The notes under the pieces were generated by a model. That model searched no databases and was not told where the DNA came from. It saw nothing but the letters and a program-made list of their open reading frames with translations. A program made the translations under genes and the position numbers. Shown here piece after piece: positions 34,839 to 38,955 of a stretch of 64,000 nt of DNA (position 1 is its first letter; each line of letters starts with the position of its first letter). The stretch comes from Synechococcus sp. BO 8801 (GTDB lineage: Bacteria; Cyanobacteriota; Cyanobacteriia; PCC-6307; Cyanobiaceae): the NCBI RefSeq assembly GCF_002252675.1, contig NZ_NQKY01000005.1:62001-126000 (forward strand), in the 5' to 3' direction.

Positions 34839-37067
34839 ATGCGGGACATGTGCCGCGGCTTCCGGATGCCCCGTCCGATCCGTCTGCCCCGTCCGGTCCG
34901 CCTGCTGCTGGCGTTCCTGATCGCCTGCCTGCTGCCGCTGACGGGCCTTGCGACGGCGGCCTTATCCGCGGGGCCGGGGGCCCCAGCTGCCGCCCAGCTC
35001 CGGGCCACCTACGTACCCCTGGAGAGCCAACCGTTCCATGGCCAGCTGCTGGAGCTGAAGCAGCAATGGACCGATGCCCCCCTCAACCAGGTGGTGGGGG
35101 ACAGCCCGCGGGCCACCCTGCTCAATTTCTACGTGGTGATGGCCCAGGTGAACCGGGACATCGCCCGGATCGAGGCCAAGGCTGAGGCGACACCCGGGCT
35201 GTTGTTGTCCAGCGCCTTGCGTCACGAACTGGCGCTGATCAACAGCTACTTCGAGGAGGCGGTGAAGGCCCTGGATGTGTCAGAGATTCCCCAGAGCATC
35301 CGGGCGGATTTCGCCGATGAATATGCCCTCAAGCTCAAGGTGATTCTCGATTACGTCTTCACCCACAGCCGCAAGCCTTTCGAGATTCCTGATGCGGCCG
35401 GGATGAAGGCCCTGAACGATGGACGGGTGAACCCCAGCGCCAGCTGGACCATCCCGGGCACCTCCATCACCCTGACGGATGAGGAGCCGGAGGATGGGCG
35501 TGATCGCGGCTACCGGTTCTCCGCCTTCACGGTGGCCCAGATCCCCAGCCTCTACGAGGAGATCAAGGATCAGCGAGCGCCATCTGCGGGCCCCTCGAGC
35601 CTGCTGACGCCAGCCATCTATGACGCCTTCAGCCTCCGGCCCGGCCATCTTCTGCCACCGAAGTGGTATCTGAGCATTCCCCGGAGCCTCCGGCAAACGG
35701 TGCTGGAGTCCCATCTCTGGGACCAGACCCTGTTCCAGATCGTGCTGGGTCTGCTGGCGCTGGTGGCCTTCGCCTTCGTTCAGTTCCGTCTGGTGCTGGC
35801 CCTGCTGGCCACCTACCGGATGACCGAACGGGCCGCCAGCCAACCACGCACACCGATGCAGATCTGGCAGGTCGACAACATCGCCTGGCAACGGGTGTTG
35901 CTGGCGGCCGTGGCCCTGCCCATGGCCCGTGTGGTGGAACTGCTGCTGGACCACTACGTCAACGTCACCGGCCTGCCCCTGCAGGTGTTGATGTACCTGC
36001 TCTACACGCTCTACTTCTGCTGGGCGGGGTTGTTCAGTTTCTTCCTGATGGAGGCCCTCGGCCGCAGCCTGGCCGAATGGGTCACGATCCTGCGCGGGCG
36101 GCGCAACGCCCTGCAGCTGAGCCGTGTCAGCAATCTGGTGATGCCCGTCTGCCGGGTCATGGGCGCCATCATCGGCGTCTCCCTGATGTACCGGCTGCTG
36201 ATCCTGCTGGGCCTGCCGGGCTCCACCGTCCTGGCCTTCTCTGCGGTGCCCGGCCTGGCCATCGGCCTCGGGGCCTCCAAGCTGCTGGGCAACCTGTTCG
36301 CCGGCCTGTCGATCCAGACCGACCGCCCCCTGCGGGTGGGGGAGTTCTGCCGCATCGGGAGCAATCTCGGCTACGTCACCAAGATCGGCCTGCGCTCCCT
36401 GGAGCTGCAGACCCACGAGAGCCGCATCACCATCCCTAATTCGGTCGTCGATGAGGAGACGATCGTCAACTACTCCCTGCGCTCGGATCAGGCGCAGGAT
36501 GCGGTGCAGCATGTCTTCGAGCTGCACCTGCCCCTGCCGGCCGAGCTCACCCCCGACCAGCTGGACGACCTGGTGCATTACGGCCGCCTGTACCTCACCG
36601 ATCTGCCGGGATTGTCCGCCGCCCAGGTGTTCCTTGACCAGGCGACAGCCGATGGGGAGCTGCTGCTGCGCTGCTGCGGTCAGATTCACGCCCCCAACTG
36701 GACCGACTACCTCACCCTGCGGGAAGCGGTCCTGCTGCGGCTGCGGCAGATCCTCGATCAGGTGATCCGCTCCCGCATGGTGATCGGCGTGGCCTACGAC
36801 ACCAGCCCCGAGCAGCTGCAGCGCATTCCGGAACTGATCGCCTCGCTGTTCGATGCCGAGCCCCTGGCCGCTTTCCGGGCCTGTCGGCTGATGGCCATCA
36901 ACGACTTCAGCTACGACTTCACCTACGACTACCGCTCCTCCCAGCCCACCTATGCGGCGTTCAAGGATGAGGTGGCCCGCCTCAACCGGGCCCTGCTGGC
37001 CCTGTTCGCCGCCGAGGGAATCGAGATCCCCTACCCCACCCAGGCGGAGGTCCAGCTGAATGGCTGA
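34839..37067 (+). CDS. MscS-family mechanosensitive ion channel
   Basis: The 742-residue protein has an N-terminal signal-like segment (VRLLLAFLIACLLPLTGLA), a periplasmic helical region to about residue 280, then several spans (FQIVLGLLALVAFAFVQFRL, VLLAAVALPMARVVELLLD, LLYTLYFCWAGLFSFFLME). The MscS core is clear: AVPGLAIGLGASKLLGNLFAG, the pore helix with its Gly/Ala pattern, then IQTDRPLRVGEFCRIG and ITIPNSVVDEETIVNYS. It opens under membrane tension. The start could be Met10 (34866). Its stop overlaps the next gene by 8 bp. Confidence 0.9.
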   Translation: MRDMCRGFRMPRPIRLPRPVRLLLAFLIACLLPLTGLATAALSAGPGAPAAAQLRATYVPLESQPFHGQLLELKQQWTDAPLNQVVGDSPRATLLNFYVVMAQVNRDIARIEAKAEATPGLLLSSALRHELALINSYFEEAVKALDVSEIPQSIRADFADEYALKLKVILDYVFTHSRKPFEIPDAAGMKALNDGRVNPSASWTIPGTSITLTDEEPEDGRDRGYRFSAFTVAQIPSLYEEIKDQRAPSAGPSSLLTPAIYDAFSLRPGHLLPPKWYLSIPRSLRQTVLESHLWDQTLFQIVLGLLALVAFAFVQFRLVLALLATYRMTERAASQPRTPMQIWQVDNIAWQRVLLAAVALPMARVVELLLDHYVNVTGLPLQVLMYLLYTLYFCWAGLFSFFLMEALGRSLAEWVTILRGRRNALQLSRVSNLVMPVCRVMGAIIGVSLMYRLLILLGLPGSTVLAFSAVPGLAIGLGASKLLGNLFAGLSIQTDRPLRVGEFCRIGSNLGYVTKIGLRSLELQTHESRITIPNSVVDEETIVNYSLRSDQAQDAVQHVFELHLPLPAELTPDQLDDLVHYGRLYLTDLPGLSAAQVFLDQATADGELLLRCCGQIHAPNWTDYLTLREAVLLRLRQILDQVIRSRMVIGVAYDTSPEQLQRIPELIASLFDAEPLAAFRACRLMAINDFSYDFTYDYRSSQPTYAAFKDEVARLNRALLALFAAEGIEIPYPTQAEVQLNG

Positions 37068-37647
37068 GCTGAGGCTCCAGACCCTGGCGGGCTGCGGCCT
37101 GGCGATCGGCGCCTATCCCCGCTTCCGCTACGACGCCCGAGGCGGCGGCGGGCTGGGCGAGCTCACCGCGGCGGATCCCGCCGGTATGGGCATCGGCCCT
37201 GGCACCGGCAGCCTCTGCTTCGATCCGGCTGGCCTGAGGATCCCGCCGCTCGACTGGCGCACCACCCGCTTCCTGGGGTTGCCGTTGCCCCCCGGACTGG
37301 CGATCACGATCCACCCGGAGCGGCTCGAGGGCCGCATCGACGGCGCCACCGGGGCGATGGCGCTGCACTTCCAGGCCCGCTTCCGCTTCGCCATCGGCTC
37401 CCTCTACCGCGCCCCCGACCTGATCGTCGCCACCACCCTCAGCACCGGTCCGGTGCAGGGCCGCCGCCACCGGGCCAGCGGCCAGCCCCTCGACGGCGAC
37501 GGCCGGGCGCTGCTGGTGGGGGTGGCCACCATCGCCCCCAGCGGCGACCCCTGGCTCGACCGGTTTCTGGGCTTGCCCGACGAGGCCCTCGCCCTGCTGC
37601 GCTGCCGCCTGGTGCCCAGGGCAGCAGAAGCCCAGGACTTACCTTGA
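37060..37647 (+). CDS. hypothetical protein
   Basis: I do not recognise this 195-residue protein. It starts inside the end of the MscS gene (8-bp overlap). It is beta-rich and soluble (LRLQTLAGCGLAIGAYPRFR, LGLPLPPGLAITIHPERL, ALHFQARFRFAIGSLYRA, LIVATTLSTGPVQG) and ends in a helical region. No signal peptide or catalytic motif is apparent. The coupling suggests it may act with the channel or its regulation, but this is only positional. Confidence 0.65.
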   Translation: MAELRLQTLAGCGLAIGAYPRFRYDARGGGGLGELTAADPAGMGIGPGTGSLCFDPAGLRIPPLDWRTTRFLGLPLPPGLAITIHPERLEGRIDGATGAMALHFQARFRFAIGSLYRAPDLIVATTLSTGPVQGRRHRASGQPLDGDGRALLVGVATIAPSGDPWLDRFLGLPDEALALLRCRLVPRAAEAQDLP

Positions 37648-37671: not shown

Positions 37672-38322
37672 ATGCACCCCCTGCCGCTGCATCTCGGCCC
37701 GGGCAGTGATCTGCGAGCCAGCCTCGAGCAGCTGGCGATCGAAGCCGGCGCCTCCGGCTTCGTGCTCGGCGTCGTCGGGGACCTCTCCCAGGCGGCCTTC
37801 CAGTGCCCGGGGCTGGAGGAGCCCACCGTGCTGCAGGGCCACCTGGAGATCATCACCCTGCAGGGCACCGTGGCGCCCCAGGGGGTGCACCTGCACCTGA
37901 GCCTCTCCGACGGCGACTGCCAGGTGTGGGGCGGCCACCTCGAGCACGGCAGCGTCGTGCTGCGGGGCGCCGACCTGCTGGTGGGCTTCCTGCCGCAGCC
38001 CGGAGCACCCCAGGATCCGGCGCAGGCCGCCGTGGCGACCGCAGCGGCCCGGCCCACCGTGCCCGCATCCCCGGCCCAGCCCCGGGTGGAGATCGCCGTG
38101 CGCAGCGGCTGCCCCTATTCGGCCCGAGCCCTGCGCATGCTGCGCACCCTCGGCATCCCCCATGGGGTGCAGCTCGCCGACGACGACGCGGCGCGGGCGG
38201 CGGTCGCCGAGCGCAGCGGCCTGACCTCCATGCCCCAGGTGTTCATCGATGGCCAGCCCATCGGCGGCTACGACGCCCTGGCCGATCTCCACGGCCGCGG
38301 CGAGCTCGACCACCTGCGCTGA
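37672..38322 (+). CDS. PCC/DUF296 domain fused to a glutaredoxin domain
   Basis: Residues 1-115 form a PCC (DUF296) domain: LHLGPGSDLRASLEQLA, GASGFVLGVVGDLSQAAF, LEIITLQGTVAPQGVHLHLS and WGGHLEHGSVVLRGADLLV, where HLHLS and GGHL are the domain's conserved loops. After a Pro/Ala-rich linker, residues 140-216 are a glutaredoxin: VEIAVRSGCPYSARALRML with a CPYS active site and LTSMPQVFIDGQPIGGYDAL as the glutathione loop. It should bind or reduce a thiol partner using glutathione. The PCC role here is unknown. The two-domain chain is unusual. Confidence 0.85.
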   Translation: MHPLPLHLGPGSDLRASLEQLAIEAGASGFVLGVVGDLSQAAFQCPGLEEPTVLQGHLEIITLQGTVAPQGVHLHLSLSDGDCQVWGGHLEHGSVVLRGADLLVGFLPQPGAPQDPAQAAVATAAARPTVPASPAQPRVEIAVRSGCPYSARALRMLRTLGIPHGVQLADDDAARAAVAERSGLTSMPQVFIDGQPIGGYDALADLHGRGELDHLR

Positions 38323-38331
38323 AGGGGCCCC

Positions 38332-38955
38332 CTAGCGGGACAGCTCTGGAAACTGCTCCTTCAGCCGGGCCAGCTTCGGCTGGTCATGGGCGACCACGTA
38401 GGGATGGGTCGGGTTGCGGGCGACGAAGTCCTGGTGGTAGGCCTCGGCCGGGGTGAAGCCCCGCCAGACCTCCACCGTGGTGGCGATCGGCCGGGGCAGC
38501 GCGCCGGAGCGATCCAGCTGGGCGATGGTGGCCTCAGCCACCCGGCGCTGTTCCGGGTCGGTGGGGAAGATCGCTGAGCGGTACTGGGGGCCCACATCCG
38601 GACCCTGGCGGTTGAGCTCGGTGGGATCGTGGGCCACGGAGAAGAACACCTTCAGCAGCTCCCCGTAGCTCACCCGGGCTGGGTCGTAGGTGATGCGGAT
38701 GCCCTCGGCGTGGCCGGTGTCGCCACCGCTCACCCGTTCGTAGGCGGCGGTGGCCGGGCTGCCGCCGGCGTACCCGGTCACCACCTCGGTGACGCCCCGC
38801 ACCTGTTCGAACACCGCTTCCATGCCCCAGAAGCACCCTCCTGCCAGCACCGCCGTGGCGCGTGGCGGTACGGCCGCAGACAGCGGCAAGGCCAGCAGGC
38901 CGGCAGCCACAGCACCGATGGCGGCGGCTGAGGTGAGGTGTGGTGGCAGTCGCAT
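38332..38955 (-). CDS. msrA: exported peptide methionine-(S)-sulfoxide reductase
   Basis: A signal peptide is visible (IGAVAAGLLALPLSAAVPPRA). The mature part is a full MsrA: GGCFWGMEAVFEQVRGV with the nucleophilic Cys, TEVVTGYAGGSPATAAYERV, GDTGHAEGIRITYDP and ILT/VEVWRGFTPAEAYHQDF. It repairs oxidised methionine in exported or lumenal proteins. Recycling Cys residues usual near the C-terminus are not seen, as in some one-Cys forms. It is convergent with the PCC-glutaredoxin gene, just 10 bp away. Confidence 0.92.
   Translation of the reverse strand: MRLPPHLTSAAAIGAVAAGLLALPLSAAVPPRATAVLAGGCFWGMEAVFEQVRGVTEVVTGYAGGSPATAAYERVSGGDTGHAEGIRITYDPARVSYGELLKVFFSVAHDPTELNRQGPDVGPQYRSAIFPTDPEQRRVAEATIAQLDRSGALPRPIATTVEVWRGFTPAEAYHQDFVARNPTHPYVVAHDQPKLARLKEQFPELSR

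Follow-up and report, generated by a model that had tools for sequence, protein, structure and literature searches.

The window, a stretch of 64,000 nucleotides from Synechococcus sp. BO 8801 (contig NZ_NQKY01000005.1, positions 62,001 to 126,000 of the forward strand), contains at positions 37672..38322 of the plus strand a single open reading frame (ORF) with an ATG start, encoding 216 amino acids plus a stop codon. A sequence-only reading of this DNA had described the gene as a fusion of a PCC (DUF296) domain with a glutaredoxin (Grx), and a Pfam search of the 216-amino-acid protein placed both domains above their curated cut-offs: PCC (PF03479) at residues 4 to 104 (37681..37983, plus strand; E value of 4.1e-19, 69.4 bits with the cut-off at 25) and Grx (PF00462) at residues 139 to 196 (38086..38259, plus strand; E value of 8.7e-13, 48.7 bits against 22.9). 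With NCBIfam, sub-threshold glutaredoxin models were the only matches, the best scoring 57.2 bits where 129 is required. The CPYS active site named in the same reading is present as C147-P-Y-S150 (38110..38121, plus strand).

A structure prediction of the joined protein, also suggested in that reading, gave an AlphaFold model, built with 27 sequences, that has a mean pLDDT of 86.6 and shows two confidently predicted domains; between them, residues 112 to 134 (38005..38073, plus strand; pLDDT under 50) are of low confidence and form a linker that is variable in length and sequence and is probably flexible. The pTM of this model is 0.51, so the relative placement of the PCC and Grx domains is not fixed by it. 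In structure comparisons, for which Foldseek was also run, the PCC half matched 2p6y (Z of 20.0, rmsd of 1.3, 109 residues aligned), 2hx0 (Z of 18.0, rmsd of 1.9, 113 aligned), 3htn (Z of 16.0, rmsd of 1.7, 107 aligned), and 2h6l (Z of 13.9, rmsd of 1.9, 106 aligned). These standalone prokaryotic PCC proteins, together with 2dt4, have the same fold as the fused domain and differ from it in having no Grx; solved PCC relatives are reported as trimers in the accessible part of one paper (PMC4209074). The Grx half matched Synechocystis GrxA entries (Z of about 14, rmsd of 3.3 to 3.9, 90 to 91 aligned) and E. coli Grx3 (3grx; Z of 13.6, rmsd of 1.6, 80 aligned).

Upstream of the fusion, on the same strand, lie a gene for an MscS-type channel (34839-37067) and a gene for a 195-amino-acid protein (37060..37647) that ends 24 bases before the fusion and has no Pfam or NCBIfam family above threshold; downstream, on the opposite strand, is a gene for methionine sulfoxide reductase A (MsrA; 38332-38955). 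The 195-amino-acid gene adjoins the fusion in 21 of 26 named-genome loci, in three arrangements. Across 60 chosen genomes of the family, it was found in 31 (23 of 35 with the fusion and 8 of 25 without it). We rejected its product as a required partner, since its presence is only loosely tied to that of the fusion and the two genes are far apart in several genomes. The model of this protein is beta-barrel-like (pLDDT of 87.2), with NspA as its best match (Z of 10.9, rmsd of 3.0, 141 aligned), followed by the polyisoprenoid-binding protein 1wub (Z of 8.2, rmsd of 4.0, 145 aligned) and PsbO 5xnl_O (Z of 8.0, rmsd of 3.6, 131 aligned). The modeled likeness to outer-membrane barrels, YceI-type proteins, and PsbO chains appears weak, and we make no assignment from it. 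MsrA was likewise rejected as a partner, as it is next to the fusion in just 8 of the 26 named loci. In the marine-type loci that we examined, the divergent upstream gene encodes a CDP-alcohol phosphatidyltransferase (confirmed by Pfam in three), an adjacency that reflects synteny and not an evident function.

The sequence-only reading had proposed a search for the same fusion in other cyanobacteria and had taken separate domains in all close relatives as evidence against its idea; we found that close relatives carry the fusion. A scan of named species genomes yielded 58 loci, 26 of which (L006-L031) match residues 1 to 215 or 216 of the query at 48 to 94% identity, and because of these matches we conclude that the fusion is real and no accident of frame. 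The full-length loci come from records titled Cyanobium, Synechococcus, Vulcanococcus, Prochlorococcus, Aphanothece, and some further names. The remainder comprise one locus cut by a contig start (L032) and 31, mostly from Sphingomonas, that match the Grx part or flank only. Some match was found in 395 of 400 genomes of the family, a count that includes separate PCC or Grx genes; among the matches listed for these genomes, nearly all were full-length. In a strongly diverged genus with genomes of about 1.7 Mb (g17), a single-sequence query mostly matched the PCC part, and the whole fusion was present, at 35 to 38% identity, in the seven loci fetched from it. We also used a profile search on 28 of 251 high-quality family genomes, picked by eye for their weak best matches, and found no joined PCC-Grx match in 26 of them. 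In the other two (G168 and G224), matches are cut by contig ends; we considered fission or loss of one half in these genomes and rejected it, as the lone halves stop where the contigs end and are probably cut fusions. Apart from such contig-edge pieces, no lone half of the fused type was found among the loci examined.

Outside the family, a class-level survey of 388 genomes (64 of them in the family), in which the matches listed reach about E 3.7e-15, gave no match spanning both domains in the other 324; among the matches listed, these genomes have PCC and Grx as separate genes only. A phylum-level survey of 146 genomes likewise gave no two-domain match outside the family among the matches listed. 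A phage origin was rejected, with no full-length match in 50,697 phage records and none confirmed in viral contigs, and there were zero full-length matches in 72,556 plasmid records. Thus, the fusion is an ancient trait of a single family of small cyanobacteria from marine and fresh waters, which includes Cyanobium, Synechococcus, Vulcanococcus, and Prochlorococcus, and it has sometimes been lost.

We found a pair of cysteines that separates the fused PCC domains from the standalone ones. For this comparison, we took the ORFs with a PCC match from the fetched loci: 98 of them also match Grx, giving 82 unique PCC domains, and 60 do not, giving 58; the standalone set was drawn mostly from the best-scoring matches of the class survey, which favors likeness to the query, and some of its 58 cyanobacterial domains come from genomes that also carry the fusion. 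Cys45 (codon at 37804..37806, plus strand) and Cys83 (37918..37920, plus strand) are each present in 82 of 82 fused and 0 of 58 standalone domains, position 83 of the latter being Gly in 57 and a gap in 1, and the same 82/82 and 0/58 split holds for P46. At a 95%/5% level, 5 of 107 PCC columns divide the two groups (V34, C45, P46, C83, and E91), with C45, P46, and C83 doing so without exception. Pairwise identity among the fused PCC domains goes down to 33%, and 16 of the 107 columns are invariant, C45 and C83 among them. When aligned to the PCC domain of the window, 2hx0 and 2p6y have no cysteine at 45 and 83, and 2dt4 has none at 83, the sole position of the pair that its alignment covers. 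In contrast, three histidines are common to both groups: the His73-x-His75 motif (37888..37896, plus strand), whose histidines are possible metal ligands, and His89 (37936..37938, plus strand) are found in 82 of 82 fused and 57 of 58 standalone domains, the remaining His73/His75 row being a gap. In the AlphaFold model, C45 and C83 are at strand ends or turns, a placement that by itself does not imply that they are in contact. In a tree of PCC domains, made from 108 columns and having several very long branches, the fused and standalone domains fall on opposite sides of one branch with a support of 100/100. Since this one branch holds all of the fused domains, the association of Grx with the cysteines represents a single event retained through long divergence, not many parallel gains.

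Class I glutaredoxins are marked by a nucleophilic cysteine, a conserved proline, and the GG of the glutathione groove, and all of these marks are present in the fused Grx domains, with C147, P188, G198, and G199 invariant, along with P148 and Y200, in 85 of 85 unique fused proteins. The fold and these residues are shared with Synechocystis GrxA and E. coli Grx3, and P188 is presumably the cis-proline of the glutaredoxin fold. Tyr200 is mostly replaced by serine in 24 standalone Grx rows, most of which are from Sphingomonas. The fused domains further differ from GrxA and Grx3 in that the second active-site cysteine is mostly serine: at residue 150, 64 of the 85 proteins have S and 21 have C, while 23 of the 24 standalone rows have C. 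The dithiol CPYC motif, which is common but not universal in class I, is absent from the window protein, and most fusions have a monothiol variant (33 CPWS, 19 CPFS, and 12 CPYS, against 18 CPWC and 3 CPYC). Exactly three cysteines in total are found in 50 of the 64 CPxS fusions (and in 24 of the 27 proteins of alignment A1), and exactly four in 15 of the 21 CPxC fusions. On the PCC tree, residue 150 has undergone at least five changes among 82 rows (62 S and 20 C). As judged from these sequences, the second Grx active-site cysteine is dispensable in the fusion family, and its switching between serine and cysteine is a pattern that a monothiol mechanism would allow.

The PCC-Grx architecture is not new to science, as a bacteria-specific "DUF296-GRX" arrangement was printed in 2009 with a guess of DNA binding (Alves et al., PMC2679010). 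The proteins described there resemble the present family in architecture, in being bacterial, and in having a Grx outside the CGFS class; they differ in that the accessible text of that paper names no organism and notes no cysteines in the PCC domain, and in that the active sites of the present family are mostly CPxS, not CPYC. In the open-access literature, we found no study of DUF296-GRX after 2009 and no report in print of the conserved C45/C83 pair of the fused PCC domain; for bacterial PCC domains we found solved structures but no demonstrated function. To the known architecture, the present work adds its distribution throughout the family, the conserved cysteines, and the proposal of a switch.

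Our preferred reading, to which we assign a probability of about 0.45, is that the fusion is a glutathione-linked redox switch that acts on C45 and C83 of its PCC domain. We propose it because a monothiol Grx, a probably flexible linker, and two extra PCC thiols are the same parts that make up the engineered rxYFP-Grx and roGFP2-Grx sensors. The accessible text of PMC10897161 describes how a monothiol Grx that is fused to rxYFP or roGFP2, or that acts on them, equilibrates the dithiol of its partner with glutathione, how fusion speeds this equilibration, and how, for roGFP2, the monothiol route exceeds the dithiol route. One solved YFP-Grx construct, 2jad, was among our structure matches, those of Foldseek included. 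As in the roGFP-Grx relay, the natural protein couples Grx with a domain that bears a conserved thiol pair (C45 and C83 in 82 of 82), though the sensors are man-made and fluorescent, the natural pair is a putative redox pair, and a shared way of working is a proposal. Another natural Grx fusion to a thiol-bearing domain is the hybrid HI0572 of Haemophilus (1nm3), whose partner, a peroxiredoxin, has known chemistry, unlike PCC.

In such a switch, C147 alone, as a monothiol catalyst working with GSH/GSSG, would glutathionylate and deglutathionylate, or oxidize and reduce, C45 and C83, which would form a bond between themselves or to glutathione. The target pair could be in the protein's own PCC domain or, if the fusion is a trimer like its solved relatives, in a neighboring subunit, and the long linker would give the Grx the reach to find it. 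The state of the cysteines would then alter the binding or action of the PCC domain around the His73/His75/His89 site, where the histidines may bind a metal. Points against the switch are that the invariance of the pair traces back to one origin and that a conserved redox partner is absent among the gene neighbors, even counting MsrA. Rather tentatively, we further suggest that the fusion is a natural counterpart of roGFP-Grx, with a monothiol Grx relaying the state of the glutathione pool to two cysteines that evolved in the PCC domain across a picocyanobacterial family. If this is true, a prokaryotic PCC domain would have its first assignable biochemical input, in phototrophs that are among the most abundant on Earth, and an effector in Prochlorococcus and Synechococcus would be tied to the redox state of glutathione. 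A lineage with a fused Grx and two invariant PCC cysteines also points to particular residues for mutation and to glutathione as the input of interest.

C45 and C83 could instead be metal ligands. They might join His73, His75, and His89, or make a site of their own, in a metal or Fe-S protein in which Grx protects the thiols or passes on a glutathione-ligated cluster; the three conserved histidines would fit such a protein, as would the title of the solved relative 2h6l, a metal-containing protein, and the glutathione-coordinated [2Fe-2S] cluster that some monothiol glutaredoxins, such as yeast Grx6, hold (PMC5053157, accessible part). However, the histidines are equally kept in domains without the cysteines, which are thus not needed for a histidine site, and the fused Grx is of the CPxS/CPxC and not the CGFS class, and we consider this explanation unlikely, if worth bearing in mind. 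The same histidine cluster, joined to a glutathione-handling domain and to one invariant thiol pair, would also be consistent with a PCC domain that converts or carries a small molecule containing glutathione, with C45 and C83 catalytic and Grx providing the glutathione-binding or deglutathionylating half-reaction. We hold this to be quite improbable, as the gene neighbors vary among lineages and we found no PCC enzyme activity in the open-access literature.

The sequence-only reading had in mind a redox-responsive protein with a DNA- or ligand-binding type of domain, the authors of the 2009 paper offered DNA binding as a guess in the accessible text of PMC2679010, and PCC proteins are annotated as DNA-binding. 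The redox part of that idea gains support from the distribution of C45 and C83 and from the conserved Grx nucleophile, but the DNA-binding part gains none: the protein is acidic (pI of 5.31; the PCC part has a pI of 4.84 and a net charge of -9) and, unlike AHL-type proteins, which combine PCC with an AT-hook, it has no AT-hook core (neither GRP nor RGR), letters that occur in 3 of 27 relatives of the fusion. According to the accessible part of PMC4209074, the plant proteins contact DNA through the AT-hook and not the PCC domain, and the "DNA-binding" label of prokaryotic PCC domains is an analogy with plant AHL proteins; a redox-responsive DNA-binding regulator is therefore very unlikely. A passive or chance fusion, in which independent domains share a chain without a functional link, would agree with the variable linker and with the 26 of 28 selected near-complete family genomes that do without the fusion, which is thus not essential. 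Yet the fusion is retained among proteins whose PCC domains share as little as 33% identity, the Grx-joined PCC domain acquired two invariant cysteines specific to its clade, and halves of the fused type were not seen alone beyond contig edges, so we give a passive fusion hardly any credence and favor the glutathione-linked switch.

Several additional PCC genes were seen in these searches. The genome of the window also encodes a standalone PCC protein of 143 amino acids without C45 or C83 (locus L002, 1495-1926, minus strand); the end of a neighboring gene, apparently atpG, lies within the bounds of its ORF. One single-contig family genome (G023, 99% complete) has four standalone PCC places and no fusion. 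A different genome (G056:C1:211675-212097) has, besides an intact fusion, a further PCC-Grx-like match that is interrupted by a stop codon and is possibly a decayed copy. In two loci from another family of the same class (L132 and L133; family f4, genus g62), the upstream sequence runs in frame into PCC within one open frame of 637 to 648 codons, and this upstream part, which we take to be GlmU-like, would make a possible GlmU-PCC fusion.
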